This document shows, piece by piece, positions 14,415 through 53,141 of a stretch of DNA of 64,000 bases. The translations under genes were made by a program, and so were the position numbers. Every line of letters starts with the position of its first letter. Within the stretch, counting starts at the first letter, position 1. Source of the stretch: Kofleriaceae bacterium (GTDB lineage: Bacteria > Myxococcota_A > Polyangia > Haliangiales > Haliangiaceae); NCBI GenBank assembly GCA_018058095.1, contig JAGPCO010000005.1, positions 1 through 64,000 on the forward strand, written 5' to 3'. The notes below the pieces were generated by a model. It was not told where the DNA came from and made no database searches. It was given only the letters and a program-made list of their open reading frames with translations.

Positions 14415-16604
<2,190 letters not shown>

Positions 16605-37201: not shown

Positions 37202-38359
37202 TCAGTCGTCGAGCAGGCCGGCGCGGACGAACGCGTCGAACCCGGGGAAGTGCTGCTCGGGCTGGTCCGCCCAGTCGGGCCACAGCAGCACCGGGGCCTC
37301 GCCGGCGGCGTCGGCCGCGGCCAGATCGAAGTAGTAGTAGTCGCCGCTGTACTCGTCGGCGAACGGCAGCAGCTTGCCTGGCCCGACTCGCGGGTCGTGC
37401 CGCAGCGCCAGCTGGTAGTGCTCGCGCAGGTCGTGCAGGTGGGCGTGGGCGCCGTCGACCGCGTACACGCGCGCGAAGCGGTACTCGCCGGCGCCGAGCG
37501 AGGTCATGAAGGCGCGGTAGCTGGGCGGCAGGCGCACGCCCAGCTCGGCCTCCAGCGCGTCGAGCGCGGCCGGCGGGCAGGGCCCGGCCGGGTGTGACTC
37601 CGGGTCGGCCCGGACCTGGTCGAGCAGGGCGCCCAGGTCGGGCCCGGCCGCGGCTGGGTCGGCCTCGGCCACGTCGCCGCTGCGGCGGCGCTCGGCCATG
37701 GTGGCGATGGCCGCGCGCCACTCCAGCATGCCCTCGGCCGCCATGCGGAACAGGCGGTAGATCGGGCTCTCGCGCGGCGCCGTGCTGGCGTCGGCCGCCG
37801 GCGCGGTGTCGGGCAGCTCGAGCTCGAGCGTGACCACGCCGCCGTCGGCCGACCGGGTGTGGTGTTCGACCAGGCCGGTCAGCAGGTCGATCATCGAGGT
37901 GTTCTCGGCCAGCACCTCGCACCGGAACCGGCGCACGCCGCGTTCGCGCGCCGCCGCCATCAGGCGCATGAGGAGCAGCGTGCCCAGGCCCTGGCCGTGC
38001 AGCTCGTCGAGCACCGCCACCGCCGCCTCGGCGACGGCCGGGTCGTCGGCCAGCCGGATGAAGCGGGCCACGCCCAGGCCCTCGGGGCCGTCGGCGCCGG
38101 TCGGCACCCGCTCGGCGCCGATCGCCAGGTGGCGCTCGCCGTCGAGCTCGGTCAGGTACGACAGCTCGCGCTCGGTCAGGTGGTCCTTGGGCGCGAAGAA
38201 CCGCAGGTAGCGGCTCTCCGGCGACAGGCGCGCGAAGCCCTTGCGGACCAGCTCCTTGTCGCTCGCCCGCACCAGGCGCAGCTGCACCGGCGTGCCGTCG
38301 CGCAACCGCGCCAGCTCGGCGTAGTCGGCGTCGAAGTAGCGCTGCACCAGGAACCTCAT
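37202..38359 (-). CDS. GNAT acetyltransferase fused to SMI1/KNR4 (SUKH) domain
   Basis: 385 residues. GNAT domain about 20-190 with the acetyl-CoA loop motif A as ELHGQGLGTLLLMRLM (R/Q-x-x-G-x-G/A), an arrangement typical of Pat-type lysine acetyltransferases (start VQLRLVRASDKELVRKGFARLSPESRYLRFF). A linker holds charged helix, then the SMI1/KNR4 module at about 265-385 (LDALEAELGVRLPPSYRAFMTSLGAGEYRF). SUKH domains are known as immunity proteins of polymorphic toxins and as scaffold modules; here a targeting or sensing role for the acetyltransferase is possible. I do not know this fusion from described systems. Confidence 0.82.
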   Translation of the reverse strand: MRFLVQRYFDADYAELARLRDGTPVQLRLVRASDKELVRKGFARLSPESRYLRFFAPKDHLTERELSYLTELDGERHLAIGAERVPTGADGPEGLGVARFIRLADDPAVAEAAVAVLDELHGQGLGTLLLMRLMAAARERGVRRFRCEVLAENTSMIDLLTGLVEHHTRSADGGVVTLELELPDTAPAADASTAPRESPIYRLFRMAAEGMLEWRAAIATMAERRRSGDVAEADPAAAGPDLGALLDQVRADPESHPAGPCPPAALDALEAELGVRLPPSYRAFMTSLGAGEYRFARVYAVDGAHAHLHDLREHYQLALRHDPRVGPGKLLPFADEYSGDYYYFDLAAADAAGEAPVLLWPDWADQPEQHFPGFDAFVRAGLLDD

Positions 38360-41637: not shown

Positions 41638-41666
41638 TTGACATCGTGTCCATATGACACTATCTA
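41638..41666 (+). promoter_or_regulatory. Promoter of phosphatase-kinase operon, leaderless geometry
   Basis: -35 TTGACA (41638-41643, perfect), 17-base spacer, -10 TATCTA (41661-41666), six bases, then GTG 41673. The spacer holds GTGTC-CATAT-GACAC (41646-41660), an operator-like inverted repeat. Confidence 0.72.
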
Positions 41667-41672
41667 GAGTGT

Positions 41673-42470
41673 GTGACGAACACTAAGTCGAGCGAGCCAG
41701 GCCTCGCGGCGCGGGCCGCCAGCGTGATCGGCGGCGAGCACCACCGGACCCGGCGGCGCAGCCAGGACGCCGCCGCCTGCGTGACCGGACCGGGCTGGGC
41801 GGTGGTGGTGGTGTGTGACGGTTGCGGCTCGGCGCCGCGGTCGGAGCTGGGCGCCGAGCTGGGCGCGCAGGCGTGGGCCCACGGCCTCGCCCGCGCCCTG
41901 GCCGCTGGCGCGCCGCTGTCGCGCGCGTTGTGGGACCAGGTCTCGATCGACGTGGTGCGGACGCTGGGCGTGCTGGCCGCCCAGCTCGGGCCACGCGACC
42001 AGGTCGTGCGCGACAGCCTGCTGTTCACGGTGGTCGCCGCCGTCTACGCCGGCGGCCAGCGCGCGGTGTTCGCGATCGGCGACGGCGCCTTCGCCATCGA
42101 CGGCGTGGTCACGCCGCTCGGCCCGTTCCCCGACAACACCCCGCCGTACCCGATGTACGCGCTGACCGGCGCGCCGGTGCCGAGCCGGGTGATCGTCGAG
42201 CCGGCGCCGGCGCGCGGCAGCCTGCTGGTGGCCACCGACGGCGTCGACCCGCTGCCGGCCGGTGAGCTGGGTGCGCTGGCCGACGACGCGCGCCTGGTGA
42301 CCCACCCCGACGCGCTGCGCCGGCACCTGCACGGGTGGACCGCGGCCGGCGAGCAGGTCGACTGGCGGGCCGGGCGCGTGATGCGGCGCGCCGCCCGCCT
42401 GCGCGACGACGTCGCCGTCGGCATCATCCGCTGGGATCGCGGCGCCGGCGCCGGCGGAGCGGCGTCGTGA
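41673..42470 (+). CDS. PP2C-family protein phosphatase (TerY-P/YegK-like)
   Basis: 265 residues from GTG 41673. PP2C motifs: early Asp in RSQDA (D32), metal-binding CDGCGS (D49-G50), IGDGA (D137), LLVATDGVD (D189) and the final RDDVAVGI (D near 249). This is the short PP2C_2 type found in bacterial triads with a kinase and a vWA protein. It should remove phosphate from Ser/Thr, probably reversing the next gene. Stop overlaps the kinase start (GTGA). Confidence 0.82.
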   Translation: MTNTKSSEPGLAARAASVIGGEHHRTRRRSQDAAACVTGPGWAVVVVCDGCGSAPRSELGAELGAQAWAHGLARALAAGAPLSRALWDQVSIDVVRTLGVLAAQLGPRDQVVRDSLLFTVVAAVYAGGQRAVFAIGDGAFAIDGVVTPLGPFPDNTPPYPMYALTGAPVPSRVIVEPAPARGSLLVATDGVDPLPAGELGALADDARLVTHPDALRRHLHGWTAAGEQVDWRAGRVMRRAARLRDDVAVGIIRWDRGAGAGGAAS

Positions 42471-44185
42471 GCCGGACCGTGTACCTCGACGGCGAGCGCC
42501 GCGTGCTGGCGGCCAGCCGCGTGCTGGCCGAGGGTGGCGAGGCCGAGGTGCACGACCTCGGCGGCGGCCTGGTCGGCAAGCTGTGGAAGGCGCCCGACCA
42601 CCCCGACTACACCGGCCTGCCCGAGGCGCAGGCGGCGGCGCGCGAGCGGCTGCGGGTGTACCCGGCCAAGCTCGACGCGCTGGCCGCGCTGGCCGCGAGC
42701 GGGCGCCTGCCAGCCGGGGCGATCGCGCCGACCGGGCGTATCAGCCGCGACAAGCGTGGCGTCGAGGTCATCGGCTTCGCCATGGCGCGTATCGCCGGCG
42801 AGCCGCTGCACGCGTGGAGCGAGGCGGCCGCCCGGCGCCGGCTCGGGGTGACGCCGGCGCAGGTGGTGCGGGTGCTGCTGGCGCTGCGCGTGCTGGTCGA
42901 GGCGGTGCACCAGGCCGGCGTGGTCATCGGCGACTTCAACGACCTCAACGTGCTGGTCGACGGCGACACCCCGGCGCTGATCGATCTCGACAGCGCGCAG
43001 CTTGGCGGCTGGGCCTGCCCGATGTTCACCGACCGCTTCGTCGACCCGCGCCTGCTCGGGCCGACCGCGCCGGCGCTGGCGGCGAGCCGGCCTGGCCTCG
43101 GGCTGGCCCGGCCGCACGACGTCGGCAGCGACTGGTTCGCGTTCGCGGTGATGGCCTTCCGCTCGCTCGTCGGCGTGCACCCGTACGGCGGCGTGCACCG
43201 GCCGCCGGCGCCGGCGCGGCCGCTGCCGCCGCTCGAGCGGGCGCGCCAGGGCGTCACCGTGGCTCACCCCGACGTCGTGTATCCGCGTTCTGCCCCGCCG
43301 CTGCAGGTGTTGCCGGCGCCGGTGCTGGCCTGGTTCGAGGCGTGCTTCTCCGGCGGCGTCCGGGTGGCGATGCCGACGCACCTCCTGGCCGGCCTGCGCT
43401 TCGCCACCTGCAGCGGCTGCGGCCTCGACCACGCACGAGCGGCCTGCCCGCGCTGCGTCGGGGTGACGGTCACCGTGCCGGCGGCGACCGTGCGCGGCGC
43501 GCTGCGGGTGGTCGACCTGGCGCTGACGGCGCTGGCGCCGTCGACGGTCGAGGTCGACGCTGGCGATCGGGCCGGCGCGGCGTGGTGGTGGAGCGGTGAC
43601 ACCTTGTGGCGGCGCGGCGTGTTCGGGCCCGAGCGGGTCGGCGCCGTGCTTGGTGGCCAGGCCCGGTGCTGGATCGGCCCGGCCTTCGGCGTCGGCTTCT
43701 ACCGCGCCGGCGGGCTCACCGTCGGTTTCCTGGTCCGGCCCGACCGCGCCGGCCTCGACGACCGCGTGGCCCTGCCGCCGATGCGCGGCCAGCTGGTGGC
43801 GGCCCACGCCACGCTCAGCGCCGGCCGGGCCTGGCTCGGCTGGACCACCGCCTTCGCCGGTCGGCTGCACCAGCAGCTGGTGGTGCTCGACCGGGCCGGC
43901 GCGGTGCTGGCCCATGCCGACGTCGACGTGGCCGCCGCCGCCGTCGATCCGGACCTCGCCTGGATGGCCGGCCTGGCCGGCGCGGTCGCCGCCGGCGACG
44001 CCTTGTTCGTGCCGACCGACGACGGCCTGGTGCGGGTCGAGCTGGTCGCCGGCGCGCCCGCGGTGACCCGCACCTTCGCCGACACCCGCGGCCTGGTCGG
44101 CCCGGCCGACGTCCTCCACCTCGGTCCGCGCGGGCTCGACGTCGTCCGCGCCGGCCGCGCCCTCCGCCTCGAGCTCACGCCCTGA
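42467..44185 (+). CDS. Divergent protein kinase with zinc ribbon (TerY-P/YegI-like)
   Basis: 572 residues from GTG 42467. N-lobe Lys in VGKLWK (38-41). Catalytic loop VVIGDFNDLNVLV: D156 takes the place of the HRD Asp and N161 the metal Asn; IDLDS (D173) replaces DFG. A zinc ribbon follows (C315, C318, C327, C330 in CSGCG..CPRC). The C-terminal 230 residues are beta-rich, perhaps a propeller (repeats such as ARCWIGPAFGVGFYRAGGLTVGF and LVRVELVAGAPAV). Order kinase - Zn ribbon resembles E. coli YegI, a partner of phosphatase YegK and vWA protein YegL. All phosphotransfer residues present, so likely active. Confidence 0.78.
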   Translation: MSRTVYLDGERRVLAASRVLAEGGEAEVHDLGGGLVGKLWKAPDHPDYTGLPEAQAAARERLRVYPAKLDALAALAASGRLPAGAIAPTGRISRDKRGVEVIGFAMARIAGEPLHAWSEAAARRRLGVTPAQVVRVLLALRVLVEAVHQAGVVIGDFNDLNVLVDGDTPALIDLDSAQLGGWACPMFTDRFVDPRLLGPTAPALAASRPGLGLARPHDVGSDWFAFAVMAFRSLVGVHPYGGVHRPPAPARPLPPLERARQGVTVAHPDVVYPRSAPPLQVLPAPVLAWFEACFSGGVRVAMPTHLLAGLRFATCSGCGLDHARAACPRCVGVTVTVPAATVRGALRVVDLALTALAPSTVEVDAGDRAGAAWWWSGDTLWRRGVFGPERVGAVLGGQARCWIGPAFGVGFYRAGGLTVGFLVRPDRAGLDDRVALPPMRGQLVAAHATLSAGRAWLGWTTAFAGRLHQQLVVLDRAGAVLAHADVDVAAAAVDPDLAWMAGLAGAVAAGDALFVPTDDGLVRVELVAGAPAVTRTFADTRGLVGPADVLHLGPRGLDVVRAGRALRLELTP

Positions 44186-44240
44186 CCCGCGCGCTCGCGC
44201 GGCCTCGCGTTCCGCCCTCAACCGCCACAAGGAGCCCACG

Positions 44241-45305
44241 ATGTCCACCTCTCGCAAGCCGCTGCCCCTGCCTCCGCTGTTCGACGCCCGTCACGCCGCC
44301 GACTCCGGCTACCGGCCCGACGCCGCCGCCGTCGCCGCCGAGGCCGCGACCTGGCGCCGCGCCCACGGGCTGCGGCCGTCGGCGGTCGACGACCTGCGCC
44401 TGCACCTGTTGCTGATCGACGTGCAGAAGGACTTCTGCTTCCCCGACGGCTCGCTGTACGTGGCCGGCCGGTCCGGCACCGGCGCGGTCGACGACTCGCG
44501 CCGCATCGCCCAGACCATCTACACCAACCTCGACGTCATCACCGACATCACGACGACGATGGACACCCACGTCGCGTACCAGATCTTCTTCCCCAGCTTC
44601 TGGCTCGACCGCGACGACGCGCCGCTGACCGCGCACCGGGTCATCAGCGCCGACGAGGTGGCGCGCGGCGACGTGCGGCCCAACCCGGCCATGGCCAAGT
44701 GGCTGTGTGGGGGCAACTACACCTGGCTGTGCCAGCAGGCCCGGCACTACTGCGCCGAGCTGGAGAAGGCCGGCAAGTACCAGCTGTACCTGTGGCCGCC
44801 GCACTGCCTGCTCGGCTCCGACGGCCACGCCCTGGTCGGCGTGGTGCAGGAGGCGCGCCTCCTGCACGCGTTCGCGCGCACGTCGCAGTCGCTGGTCGAG
44901 GTCAAGGGCGGCAACCCGCTGACCGAGAACTACTCGGTGCTGCGGCCGGAGGTGGTCAGCCGCTTCGACGGCGGCACCCTGGCCCAGCGCAACACCAGCT
45001 TCCTCAAGACGCTGCTGTCGGCCGACGCGGTGGTCATCGCCGGCCAGGCCGCCAGCCACTGCGTCAAGAGCACGATCGACGACCTGCTGGCCGAGATCGT
45101 CGCCACCGATCGCAACCTGGCCAAGAAGATCTTCCTCCTGACCGACTGCATGTCGGCGGTGACCGTGCCCGACGGCAAGGGCGGCTTCGCGGTCGACTTC
45201 ACCCAGGCCGCGACCGACGCGCTCGGCCGCTTCGCCGCCGCCGGCATGAACCTCATCACCTCGGCCGATCCGCTGCGCGAGACGGTGCTGGCCCGCCTGC
45301 GCTGA
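44241..45305 (+). CDS. Isochorismatase/nicotinamidase-family hydrolase
   Basis: 354 residues; AAGGAG precedes ATG 44241. Catalytic Asp60 in LLLIDVQKDF, metal-site D108 and H110 in TMDTHVAYQIFF, catalytic C274 in AASHCVKSTI. Nicotinamidases bind zinc with such an Asp-His pair and deamidate nicotinamide to nicotinate in NAD recycling. It is longer than the usual 180-220 residues by an N-terminal extension (1-50) and internal insertions (about 115-205). Placement inside a phospho-signalling operon suggests a role in NAD level or signal turnover. Confidence 0.85.
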   Translation: MSTSRKPLPLPPLFDARHAADSGYRPDAAAVAAEAATWRRAHGLRPSAVDDLRLHLLLIDVQKDFCFPDGSLYVAGRSGTGAVDDSRRIAQTIYTNLDVITDITTTMDTHVAYQIFFPSFWLDRDDAPLTAHRVISADEVARGDVRPNPAMAKWLCGGNYTWLCQQARHYCAELEKAGKYQLYLWPPHCLLGSDGHALVGVVQEARLLHAFARTSQSLVEVKGGNPLTENYSVLRPEVVSRFDGGTLAQRNTSFLKTLLSADAVVIAGQAASHCVKSTIDDLLAEIVATDRNLAKKIFLLTDCMSAVTVPDGKGGFAVDFTQAATDALGRFAAAGMNLITSADPLRETVLARLR

Positions 45306-45368
45306 CCTGGCCCCGGTCCACCAACCCTCACTCCCTCCCTCCGTCACGTCCCTCACCAGGAGCTCGAC

Positions 45369-46166
45369 ATGTCCAAGCGCAACGACGATTCCAAGCCCAC
45401 CCCGTCCGTGACCTCCCTCCTGGCCGACGCCCACAAGGACGGCACGCTGTCGGTCGGGGCCATGGCCGCCCTCGACGTGGTCGACCTCGGCGCCGAGATC
45501 CAGGCCGGGCTCGGGGTCAACCTCGACGACGTCACCGCCAGCGAGGTGCTGCTGGTGACCATGATGCCCGACGACTCCGCCTCGATCGCCAGCGCCGGCA
45601 ACACCGCGGCGGTGCGCGACGGCCACAACGCCGTGCTCGAGGCGCTGGGCAAGAGCAAGCAGGCCGGCGACGTGCTGGTCCACACGCGTTACCTCAACGG
45701 CCACGTGCTCACCCCGTACGCGCCGCTCGACCAGGCCGTGGCCATGACCAGCAAGAACTACGACCCCAGCCTGGGCACGCCGCTGTACGACCAGGCCGTG
45801 GTCGTGCTCGGCACCGTCGTCGCCAAGGCCCAGCAGCTGGCCCAGGCCGGCATCGCCGTGCGCACGGTGACGCTGATCATCACCGACGGCGGCGACTACG
45901 GCTCGACCCGGTTCCGCGCCCGCGACGTACGCGCGCTGGTGACCGACCTCCTGGCCCAGGAGCACCACGTCGTCGCCGCCATGGGCATCTCCGACGGCAG
46001 CACCGACTTCCGCGCCGTGTTCCGCGACATGGGCATCCCCGACCGCTGGATCATGACGCCGGGCAGCTCGGCCGCCGAGATCCGGCGCGCCTTCCAGGTG
46101 TTCTCGCGCTCGGCCGCCAGCGGCGCCGGCGCCGCCACCTTCGCGCTGGGTGGGTTCGGCAACTAG
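45369..46166 (+). CDS. von Willebrand factor A-domain protein (TerY/YegL-like)
   Basis: 265 residues; CAGGAGC precedes ATG 45369. Metal-ion-dependent adhesion site intact: D68-x-S70-x-S72 (MMPDDSASI), T137 in SLGTPLYD, D173 in IITDGGDYGS. vWA proteins of this type are cytoplasmic partners of PP2C and kinase in Ter-dependent stress modules and probably serve as the substrate or scaffold. No signal peptide. Last gene of the operon, followed by a hairpin at 46168. Confidence 0.85.
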   Translation: MSKRNDDSKPTPSVTSLLADAHKDGTLSVGAMAALDVVDLGAEIQAGLGVNLDDVTASEVLLVTMMPDDSASIASAGNTAAVRDGHNAVLEALGKSKQAGDVLVHTRYLNGHVLTPYAPLDQAVAMTSKNYDPSLGTPLYDQAVVVLGTVVAKAQQLAQAGIAVRTVTLIITDGGDYGSTRFRARDVRALVTDLLAQEHHVVAAMGISDGSTDFRAVFRDMGIPDRWIMTPGSSAAEIRRAFQVFSRSAASGAGAATFALGGFGN

Positions 46167-46167
46167 T

Positions 46168-46185
46168 GTCCGCACCGGCGCGGAC
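46168..46185 (+). terminator. Hairpin after vWA gene
   Basis: GTCCGC-ACCGGC-GCGGAC two bases after the stop codon at 46166, followed by GTGTTCC. Short T content; a terminator is likely but not certain. Confidence 0.55.
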
Positions 46186-50459: not shown

Positions 50460-51359
50460 ATGCACACGCCTCGCCAGGCTCGCCCCGTCGCCTGCCTCGT
50501 CGCCGCCGCCGCGCTCGTGCTGCTGCCCGCCTGCGGCGACGACCCGGCCTCCTCCGCGGCCGACGCCGATCCGACTCGGCCCGACGCCGATCCGACCCGG
50601 CCCGACGCCGACCCCAACGCGCCCGACGCCGGGCCGACCGTCGTCGGCCCGCTGCCGCCGGCCAACGCGCCGGTCGACTACCAGCTCGGCGGCGCCTACT
50701 CGCCGCCGGCCGGCGTGATGATCGTGTCGCGCGACCGCACGGCGGCGCCGGCGGCCGGCCTGTACAACATCTGTTACGTCAATGGCTTCCAGATCCAGCC
50801 CGACGAGGAGGCGCTGTGGCTGGCCGACCACCCCGACCTCATCCTGCGCGACGGCCAGGGCAACCCGGTCATCGACGTCGACTGGAACGAGATGCTGATC
50901 GACGTCGGCACCCCGGCCAAGCGCGAGGCGGTGGCGGCCATCGTCGGCGACTGGATCCGCGGCTGCGTCGGCGCTGGCTACGACGCGGTCGAGATCGACA
51001 ACCTCGACTCGTTCTCGCGCTCGGGTGGCCGCCTGGCCGAGGCCGACGCGGTCGCCGCGATGCGCCTGTTCGCCGACGCCGCCCACGCCGCCGGCGTGCC
51101 CATCGCCCAGAAGAACTCGGCCGAGATCGTCGGCCGCCGGGCCGAACTCGGCACCGACTTCGTCGTCGCCGAGGAGTGCAACCGCTACGGCGAGTGCGAC
51201 GTGTACACCGGCGCCTACGGCGACGCGGTCATCGTCATCGAGTACCGCCGGGCCGATTTCACCGTCGGCTGCCGCGACTTCCCGCAGCTGTCGATCGTGC
51301 TGCGCGATCTCGACCTGGTGCCGGCCGGCGCCGGCGGCTACGTGTTCGAGGGCTGCTGA
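50460..51359 (+). CDS. GH114 endo-alpha-1,4-polygalactosaminidase-like lipoprotein
   Basis: 299 residues. Lipobox LPAC, then the repeats DADPTRP DADPTRP DADPNAP as tether. TIM-barrel GH114 domain about 75-299: GLYNICYVNGFQIQ, the putative catalytic acid in AVEIDNLDSFSRSGG, PIAQKNSAEIV, DFVVAEECNRYGECDVY. Family members hydrolyse galactosaminogalactan and the Pel polysaccharide. Probably surface-attached and used against foreign or own biofilm matrix. 3' end overlaps the convergent ligase by 22 bases. Confidence 0.85.
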   Translation: MHTPRQARPVACLVAAAALVLLPACGDDPASSAADADPTRPDADPTRPDADPNAPDAGPTVVGPLPPANAPVDYQLGGAYSPPAGVMIVSRDRTAAPAAGLYNICYVNGFQIQPDEEALWLADHPDLILRDGQGNPVIDVDWNEMLIDVGTPAKREAVAAIVGDWIRGCVGAGYDAVEIDNLDSFSRSGGRLAEADAVAAMRLFADAAHAAGVPIAQKNSAEIVGRRAELGTDFVVAEECNRYGECDVYTGAYGDAVIVIEYRRADFTVGCRDFPQLSIVLRDLDLVPAGAGGYVFEGC

Positions 51360-52615
51360 GCGGCCAGCGCCGCCCGCGCCGCCGCGGCGTCGTCGAACGG
51401 TAGCTCGCGCCCGGCCACCTCCTGCACGGTCTCGTGGCCCTTGCCGGCGATGATCACCACGTCGTCGGCGCCGGCCTCGGCCACTGCCCAGGCGATGGCG
51501 GCGGCGCGGTCGAGCTCGACGTGCCAGCGCGCCCGCTCGCGCGTCGGTGAGGCCCCGGCCTGGATCTCGGCGGCGATCGCCGCCGGCGCCTCGTGGCGCG
51601 GGTTGTCGGTGGTGAGCACCACCAGGTCGGCCAGGTCGTCGGCGATCTTGCCCATCTGCGGCCGCTTGCCACGGTCGCGCAGGCCGCCGCAGCCGAACAC
51701 GCACAAGAGGCGCCCGCCGGCCGGGGTGATCGCCCGCGCCGTGGTCAGCGTGCCGAGCAGCCCGTCGGGGGTGTGCGCGTAGTCGACCACCACCAGCGGC
51801 CGCGTCGCCACCACCTCGAACCGCCCACGTACGCCGCGAAAGGCCGCCAGGCCGGCGCGGATGGCCGCCGGCGGGTAGCCCAGCGCCGCCGTCGCCAGCG
51901 CCGCCGCCAGCGCGTTCTGCGCGTGCACCGCGCCGGTCACGCCCAGGACGAGCTCGCCGCCGAGCGCGTCGGCCAGCGGCGATGGCCGTAGCAGGAGGTG
52001 CGTGCGGCCGACCGCGCAGGTGACCGAGGCCGCGGCCAGGTCGGGCGCGCCGCCGGTCACGCCGAGCACCGAGTACCAGCGCCGCGTCACCCCGGTTGGG
52101 ATGACCTCGGCCAGGAGGCTCGACGCCGGGTCGTCGGCGTTGAGCACGGCCACGCCGTCCGCCGGCAGCGCCATGAACAGCTGGGCCTTGGCCGCCAGGT
52201 AGGCCTCGACCGAGCCGTGCATGTCGAGGTGGTCGCGCGTGAGGTTGGTGAACACCGCCACCGTCGGCGGCCAGCGCCGGCCGAGCCCGGCCGCCAGCGC
52301 CTTCGACGTGGTCTCGAGCGCCAGCGTGCGCACCCCGAGCTCGACCGCGCGCTCGACGGTGCCGAGGAACTCGCGCACCGGGTCGGGGCACGGCACCTGC
52401 TCGCCAGCGACCCACGCCCCCAGCGTGGTCAGGCGCGCGGCCGGCTCGCCGGCGGCGGCGACGATGGCCTCGACCATCGTCGTGGTCGTGGTCTTGCCGT
52501 TGGTGCCGGTCACCGCGACCGTGCGCAGGCGCGGGTGAGCGGCGGCGAAGCGGGCGACGAACTCGGGCGGCAGCGTCGGCGGCAGCACCGGTCCCGGGCC
52601 GGGCCCGGTGCTCAC
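51338..52615 (-). CDS. MurE-like ligase lacking the N-terminal domain
   Basis: 425 residues from GTG 52615, the only start in frame after the upstream stop at 52641. Central ATP domain: P-loop VAVTGTNGKTTTT (about 29-41), ETTSKALAAGL, DHLDMHGSVEAYLAAKA, GRFEVV. C-terminal domain: DYAHTPDGL, GCGGLRDRGKRPQMG, TTDNPRHEAP (DNPR is the diaminopimelate-recognition motif of MurE), GKGHET. The first 90-100 residues of ordinary MurE, which hold UDP-MurNAc, are absent. ATP-dependent amide ligase of unknown substrate; probably not the housekeeping MurE. Confidence 0.82.
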   Translation of the reverse strand: MSTGPGPGPVLPPTLPPEFVARFAAAHPRLRTVAVTGTNGKTTTTTMVEAIVAAAGEPAARLTTLGAWVAGEQVPCPDPVREFLGTVERAVELGVRTLALETTSKALAAGLGRRWPPTVAVFTNLTRDHLDMHGSVEAYLAAKAQLFMALPADGVAVLNADDPASSLLAEVIPTGVTRRWYSVLGVTGGAPDLAAASVTCAVGRTHLLLRPSPLADALGGELVLGVTGAVHAQNALAAALATAALGYPPAAIRAGLAAFRGVRGRFEVVATRPLVVVDYAHTPDGLLGTLTTARAITPAGGRLLCVFGCGGLRDRGKRPQMGKIADDLADLVVLTTDNPRHEAPAAIAAEIQAGASPTRERARWHVELDRAAAIAWAVAEAGADDVVIIAGKGHETVQEVAGRELPFDDAAAARAALAAQQPSNT

Positions 52616-52640
52616 GCGCGCGGCGTCGGGTCCGGGTCGG

Positions 52641-53141
52641 TCACTGCCATCCGGTGCATTCACCGGACGGGCTCCACTGCACGCACTCGTTGGCGGGCGC
52701 GGCCCAGCTGGTGCACTCACCCGACGGGCTCCACTGCACACACTCGTTGGCCGGCATGGCGTCGCCGGCCCAGCCGATACACTCGCCGGCCGGGCTCCAC
52801 TGCACGCACTCGTTGGCCGGCATGGCCGCGTCGCCGGCCCAGCCGACACACTCGCCCGACGGGCTCCACTGCACGCACTCGCTGGCCGGCATGGCCGCGT
52901 CGCCGGCCCAGCCGACACACTCGCCGGCCGGGCTCCACTGCACGCACTCGGCCGCCGGCATGGCCTGGTCGGCGCCGGGCCCGGCCTGCATCGGCTGGCC
53001 ACCGCTGCCGGGCGCGCCGCCGGGCTGGCCGGGGTACGTCACGCCCGGCTGCGGCTGGGCCGGGACACAGCCAGCCAGCGCCGAGCCACCCATGCCCATC
53101 GACAGGGCGAGCTGAAGGAACCGCGAGCGATCGATGTTCAC
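52641..53141 (-). CDS. Cys/Trp repeat lipoprotein
   Basis: 166 residues from GTG 53141. Signal has an RSRFLQ motif, Tat-like, with lipobox LAGC at Cys25. Residues about 65-166 are five tandem copies of ECVQWSPxGECxGW, separated by AGDAAMPA(N/S/A) linkers in the first four. Each copy has two Cys and two Trp, giving ten Cys at fixed spacing, either five disulfide loops or metal sites. I know no family with this repeat. It is followed 25 bases later by the MurE-like gene and may be co-transcribed. Confidence 0.8.
   Translation of the reverse strand: MNIDRSRFLQLALSMGMGGSALAGCVPAQPQPGVTYPGQPGGAPGSGGQPMQAGPGADQAMPAAECVQWSPAGECVGWAGDAAMPASECVQWSPSGECVGWAGDAAMPANECVQWSPAGECIGWAGDAMPANECVQWSPSGECTSWAAPANECVQWSPSGECTGWQ
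52650..52960. repeat. Five tandem 57-69-base repeats in the lipoprotein gene
   Basis: The block GGGCTCCACTGCACGCACTC recurs about every 69 bases across the gene, with CACTCGCC or CACTCACCC(G) preceding it; the first interval is shorter. Reading frame is kept in every unit. Confidence 0.85.

Follow-up and report, generated by a model that had tools for sequence, protein, structure and literature searches.

Analysing a 64,000-nucleotide stretch of a Kofleriaceae genome (GenBank assembly GCA_018058095.1, contig JAGPCO010000005.1, positions 1 to 64,000; hereafter the window), we identified a tight four-gene operon on the + strand (41673-46166) encoding a PP2C phosphatase, a YegI-like kinase, an enlarged nicotinamidase-family hydrolase and a vWA-domain protein. 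Comparative genomics indicates that the four genes are one conserved unit, whose predicted promoter operators are shared with the nicotinate phosphoribosyltransferase (NAPRT) promoters of the family. The unit is very probably a module of the nicotinamide adenine dinucleotide (NAD) regulon built around the nicotinamidase-family enzyme, and its best explanation, to which we assign a probability of roughly 0.55, is an NAD-salvage control module. Although the phosphatase-kinase-vWA triad and nicotinamidases have each been described, the combination of the two in a single phage-borne unit with NrtR boxes appears to be new, and no earlier description of the four-gene set was found in the open-access literature, subscription papers and bioRxiv preprints lying outside the search.

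An earlier note on this DNA had described an operon of PP2C phosphatase, divergent kinase, hydrolase and vWA genes, an order confirmed here by four same-strand genes, and had placed the start of the region at 41638, which is exactly the TTGACA of the predicted promoter. The PP2C and kinase open reading frames (ORFs) overlap by 4 bp, the kinase-hydrolase and hydrolase-vWA gaps measure 55 bp and 63 bp, and the ATG codons of the hydrolase and vWA genes are each preceded by a Shine-Dalgarno-like AAGGAG/AGGAG.

Conservation and NAD context of the four-gene unit

The enzyme was found in 25/35 genomes of the order, and its operon-type form in 23 of the 30 genomes of the family, with the kinase upstream and the vWA gene downstream in all 23. 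A sample of 331 genomes from the phylum contained the long-type kinase in 10 genomes and the enzyme in 40, the enzyme directly following the kinase on the same strand in 10/10 kinase-bearing genomes. Scanning genome contigs more widely and analysing the best 80 of 579 enzyme loci, we found two or more triad genes no farther than 8 kb from the enzyme in 34 of these 80 bacterial loci, belonging to myxobacteria, Acidobacteria, Elusimicrobia and some cyanobacteria (two records labelled as candidate-phylum bins may be misbinned). Complete bacterial sets kept the order PP2C-kinase-enzyme-vWA in all 28 dereplicated loci, the two loci scripted as bacterial with another gene order being the phage records L029 and L031, and inter-locus distances correlated across the module genes (Mantel 0.74-0.78, p 0.001). 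The linkage of an isochorismatase-family gene to such triads, read by the earlier note from a single operon, therefore recurs in many phyla and in phages.

The IMG/VR database yielded 70 enzyme loci, or 56 after dereplication, 45 of which hold all three partners, mostly ordered enzyme-vWA-PP2C-kinase, and a reciprocal search from the viral kinase recovered the enzyme in 17/18 loci. The genes are likewise present in huge phages deposited in GenBank (records of 595 kb and 485 kb). The terminase large subunit profile phrog_2 matched 24/40 records tested, including L115 and L121, which bear the long, bacterial-type kinase; because this profile also matched 11/14 control genomes, four phage matches were checked individually and confirmed as terminase large subunit by PHROGs, and for records other than the terminase-matching ones viral status rests on the IMG/VR classification. 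The profile PF03237 was discarded as a phage marker, being too insensitive (8/49). For the module proteins themselves, PHROGs returned only function-unknown matches, for two of the four.

The regulatory signals point to the NAD regulon. Two predicted operators, NrtR-type palindromes of the form GTGT-N7-ACAC, are the only such matches in the window (0.45 expected), and the composite TTGACA-NN-GTGT-N7-ACACTA occurs there once, with 0 expected in shuffles. A generic sigma-70 promoter scan did not call this promoter because its -10 hexamer is weak. Within the family, every module promoter (17/17) and every NAPRT promoter (11/11) had the box; a scan of 288.5 kb of DNA from the family gave 44 matches, 43 of them at promoters of these two kinds. 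Across phyla, it stood upstream of PP2C in 25/31 and of NrtR in 19/23 bacterial loci, the background rate being 0.022 per 350 bp. The box is often tandem in L033-L053, L073-L099 and sister loci, with a spacing of 22-26 bp that suggests cooperative binding of two dimers.

This format is the same as that of the AGTGT-N7-ACAC sites of the NrtR-family regulator BtAraR, proven by electrophoretic mobility shift assay and crystal structure (e.g. AGTGTTACTTTTACACC), and ADP-ribose is the effector of the Shewanella and Synechocystis NrtR proteins (PMC4666351). The genome of the window encodes an NrtR (G000:C65; NrtR_WHD, E 1e-27), and the NrtR of this family would bind the predicted operators. The module thus has in common with NrtR regulons both the GTGT-N7-ACAC operator and a frequently adjacent NrtR gene; no paper placing a kinase/phosphatase/vWA set in an NrtR regulon was found in the open-access literature.

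The neighbouring genes are consistent with this assignment. Flanking ORFs were clustered unsupervised and the clusters identified by Pfam, after removal of the module's own genes and of antisense shadows (including clusters 4 and 8). The clusters included NAPRT, NrtR (Nudix plus winged helix), NAD synthetase (NadE), ADP-ribosylglycohydrolase and a NadD-like nucleotidyltransferase, the first four being the commonest among those recurring in bacterial and viral neighbourhoods alike. At least one such NAD gene occurred in the flanks examined of 24/34 bacterial triad loci and 28/56 viral loci, and an NrtR gene adjoins 21/34 of the former.

Individual loci illustrate the association. In a sister genus of the same family (G018, locus L192), a single contig carries the order NAPRT-enzyme(short)-vWA-PP2C-kinase; a search with E. 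coli PncA found no full-length canonical PncA in this genome, and short homologues in NAPRT operons appear to replace PncA. At locus L238, in a different genome of the phylum sample, the PP2C-kinase-enzyme-vWA genes are transcribed divergently from NrtR and NAPRT, and three operator-like boxes occupy the space between the two groups. Several cyanobacteria (L074, L088) have NrtR divergent from PP2C, and in them PP2C is separated from the kinase by ADP-ribosylglycohydrolase genes. The earlier note had linked the triad to NAD or related amide chemistry; conserved NAD-gene neighbours and the shared NrtR-type operator support that link.

Further loci deserve mention. On Variovorax megaplasmids, a short-type enzyme lies beside NrtR/Nudix, NAD synthetase and ADP-ribosylglycohydrolase genes (L026) or beside macro-domain, NUDIX, vWA and NAD kinase genes (L027), surroundings that form an NAD/ADP-ribose island on plasmids. 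Most filamentous cyanobacteria in the sample (L064-L111) have a solitary enzyme, the 8 kb around it being free of a triad; most of the solitary-enzyme cyanobacteria tested have no full-length kinase of the module type in their genome, reflecting either triad loss or the ancestral state. The record L038, titled Comamonas sp. KCTC 72670, contains a myxobacterial-type operon with an enzyme 70% identical, and its organism label is probably wrong; a NAPRT assignment in this locus was rejected, the protein being a DUF418 member, and L056 had no NCBIfam match.

The hydrolase and its three partners

The hydrolase belongs to the nicotinamidase family by profile and predicted fold only, since a PDB sequence search returned nothing at E 0.01. 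It matched Pfam Isochorismatase (E 3e-4) and the NCBIfam nicotinamidase model (4e-7), both below the cut-offs of those models, and its family profile recovered E. coli PncA at E 1e-11 (best shuffled decoy 0.048). The 15 highest-Z PDB matches to its AlphaFold model (predicted local distance difference test, pLDDT, 95.4) are all nicotinamidases/pyrazinamidases (VIA-align Z 22.5-17.6), led by the Drosophila enzyme (22.5), yeast Pnc1 (22.2) and Acinetobacter PncA (21.5); other isochorismatase-like families follow from Z 17.4, a margin of under 1 to the last of these leading nicotinamidases (17.6). The enlarged isochorismatase-family enzyme announced between the kinase and vWA genes is thus a protein of 354 aa with a nicotinamidase fold.

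In an alignment of 182 sequences, E. coli PncA included, the catalytic D60 and K222 are invariant and C274 is kept in 181, and the metal ligands D108, H110 (D-x-H) and H188 (WPxH) are invariant. The earlier claim that all catalytic residues are present holds for this Asp/Lys/Cys triad and for three metal ligands, but not for the fourth ligand of M. tuberculosis PncA, which is F117 here. Nicotinamidases with three metal ligands occur in Pyrococcus and yeast, and the reading of F117 as a sign of a dead enzyme was dropped for that reason. Compared with PncA/Pnc1, with which it shares the catalytic residues, the D-x-H and WPxH metal site and the fold, the operon hydrolase is larger (354 aa vs about 185-216 aa), contains an insertion and one more helix at its N-terminus, has Phe at the fourth M. 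tuberculosis-type ligand and is coupled to a kinase/phosphatase/vWA set. In two phage members (L127:8001-8867 and L163:8001-8879) an in-frame stop lies within the aligned stretch, either a match start/end artefact or a stop-codon reassignment.

The kinase retains K38 (88/89), D156 (90/90), N161 (90/90) and D173 (89/90) among sequences not gapped at the respective position, which answers the doubt raised in the earlier note as to whether D156/N161/D173 align with kinase folds. Its AlphaFold model (pLDDT 90.8) matches protein kinases in the PDB. The zinc ribbon read from the sequence was found as C315-x2-C318-x8-C327-x2-C330 adjoining the kinase domain; it is present in about half of the kinase family (the long clade), and phage-type kinases are without it. 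About 230 residues of beta structure follow the ribbon in the model; a propeller in this C-terminal domain is a guess, the best Foldseek match being LRRK2 (kinase plus WD40) at 25 Å root-mean-square deviation. The catalytic Asp motifs of the PP2C phosphatase are kept across relatives. The vWA protein had no Pfam match, and its metal ion-dependent adhesion site (MIDAS; D68-x-S70-x-S72, T137, D173) is intact, as had been proposed, and conserved in 104 vWA proteins (S70 being Thr in 6).

Profiles built from the family were searched against E. coli proteins, with shuffled decoys as control. They recovered PphC at E 8e-16 (best decoy 0.48) and YegI at E 5e-30 by hmmsearch (best decoy 1.6); the YegL match was weak by hmmsearch (E 0.004, precisely 0.0037; best decoy 0.84) and reached a probability of 97 by hhalign. 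All three partners therefore match by profile, in keeping with the suggested likeness to YegK, YegI and YegL. In E. coli yegI-pphC(yegK)-yegL, however, no hydrolase is nearby, and YegI differs C-terminally. To our knowledge, no settled pathway has been assigned to E. coli YegI, PphC and YegL.

The TerY-P triad (Anantharaman et al. 2012) likewise unites a vWA protein, a PP2C phosphatase and a Ser/Thr kinase with a C-terminal zinc ribbon in one operon (PMC11090510). These components are common to both systems, whereas the module of the window adds a nicotinamidase-family enzyme as fixed fourth member and a beta-rich kinase C-terminal domain, and those of its recurrent neighbours that were annotated belong to NAD salvage, with NrtR-type boxes, and not to Ter or restriction systems.

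Proposed function and competing explanations

We propose the following mechanism, a complete chain to which we would give about even odds. NAD breakdown would raise ADP-ribose, relieving NrtR repression so that the operon is made; the kinase would add phosphate to the vWA protein, the enzyme or both, and the phosphatase would remove it; the MIDAS-bearing vWA protein would act as a phosphorylation-dependent scaffold setting the enzyme's activity or partners; and the enzyme would deamidate nicotinamide, or a close relative, yielding nicotinate for NAPRT, NadD and NadE. Huge phages, in which the module frequently adjoins NAPRT, NadE and NadD, would use it to maintain or restore NAD in the infected cell. 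A broader version, in which a dedicated phospho-signalling system senses NAD or ADP-ribose status, switches a nicotinamidase and has spread between bacteria and huge phages, the latter defending or remodelling the host NAD pool, for instance against NAD-depleting immunity, is a tentative idea that we consider less likely than not.

Several observations weigh against NAD-salvage control. Fewer than two triad genes lie within 8 kb of the enzyme in 46/80 bacterial loci, mostly cyanobacterial, so the enzyme can work alone, and no GTGT-N7-ACAC box was found upstream of PP2C in any of 57 viral loci. Members of the myxobacterial clade carry Phe or Ser at the fourth-ligand position, which is occupied by His in the cyanobacterial enzymes and in most of the phage ones. 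At another site, the genome of the window (7.6 Mb, 97% complete, high GC) encodes a canonical PncA with 55% identity to that of E. coli; its PncA, NrtR, NadE and NAPRT genes fall on separate contigs, and its relatives carry NAPRT-NadE-NrtR-PncA as one locus. In this lineage the operon enzyme is therefore a second nicotinamidase-family protein, possibly a diverged copy, which by its sequence may be a regulated isozyme or have a changed substrate. Given that NadA is present, de novo NAD synthesis probably exists in this genome too.

The rival that survives best is that the enzyme has been neofunctionalised, acting on another amide or mainly as a sensor while PncA performs NAD salvage, the module still being an NAD-regulon signalling unit. 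The presence of canonical PncA beside NAPRT-NadE-NrtR in most family genomes, the loss of the fourth-position His and a length exceeding that of E. coli PncA by about 140 residues would all fit. The conserved catalytic residues and three-ligand metal site speak against it, as do the nearest folds, which are nicotinamidases and not other amidases, and the short homologues that seem to stand in for PncA within NAPRT operons; we regard this rival as unlikely, though worth keeping in mind.

A TerY-P-type stress or anti-phage cassette with the hydrolase as NAD-directed effector, close to what the earlier note had envisaged, appears distinctly improbable. TerY-P triads accompany CoCoNuT defence systems, a TerY-P-like module has been reported as stand-alone anti-phage (PMC11090510), and the three partners match YegI/PphC/YegL. 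However, PADLOC gave only weak matches at the level of the kinase domain (PD-T4-6, 2.8e-6) and none for the other three proteins, and the neighbours are NAD-synthesis genes, not NADases. No Ter genes appeared among the recurrent neighbours annotated (not every ORF was annotated), leaving the link to Ter stress systems weak. Nor is a phage-defence role indicated, the module being carried by huge phages themselves and forming a near-fixed rather than patchy chromosomal operon in the family.

That the isochorismatase gene is a chance neighbour inside the YegKIL-type operon of one genome, as its absence from E. coli yegI/pphC/yegL might suggest, is refuted by the kinase and enzyme genes adjoining each other in 23/23 and 10/10 genomes, by the same four genes standing in a different order in phages and by the correlated inter-locus distances.

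An NAD-salvage control module would provide the TerY-P/YegKIL systems with a version wired to NAD salvage, and hence with a concrete, testable substrate and signal. The phage NAD-synthesis genes NadV, NadM and NadR have been described (PMC7824862, PMC9503650), and these papers on NAD and jumbo phages describe no isochorismatase or PP2C. Phage-encoded NAD repletion is common to both cases, but the NadV papers concern a nicotinamide phosphoribosyltransferase route, whereas the module phages encode nicotinamidase/NAPRT/NadD/NadE together with a phospho-signalling set. The many huge-phage copies suggest a regulated phage NAD-salvage route without mention in those papers, which bears on NAD-depletion immunity.

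Feature coordinates and other observations in the window

Table 1. Features of the operon region, in positions of the window
Feature	Positions	Strand	Evidence or remark
Promoter (predicted)	41638..41666	+	TTGACA, 17-bp spacer, TATCTA; layout recurs in related genomes
Operator 1 (predicted), NrtR-type palindrome GTGT-N7-ACAC	41646..41660	strandless	within promoter spacer
Operator 2 (predicted), GTGT-N7-ACAC	41669..41683	strandless	23 bp downstream of operator 1, overlaps start codon; relatives show tandem boxes 22-23 bp apart
PP2C-type protein phosphatase (PphC/YegK-like)	41673..42470	+	GTG start; Pfam PP2C_2 E 3e-19
YegI-like protein kinase, zinc ribbon, beta-rich C-terminal domain	42467..44185	+	GTG start; YegI hmmsearch, AlphaFold
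Enlarged nicotinamidase-family cysteine hydrolase, 354 aa	44241..45305	+	AlphaFold fold, conserved catalytic residues
vWA-domain protein, intact MIDAS (YegL/TerY-like)	45369..46166	+	hhalign to YegL, MIDAS conservation

Elsewhere in the window, a Mur-ligase ORF on the - strand (51338-53002) has, instead of a normal Mur N-terminal domain, a 69-bp tandem repeat of about 4 copies at 90% (52647-52965) in its N-terminal portion. An ORF at 37202-38359 (- strand) fuses a GNAT acetyltransferase to a C-terminal SUKH/SMI1-KNR4 domain, an unusual pairing, and CTG-rich hexamer repeats form a long array at 15894-16290, extending over about 400 bp.

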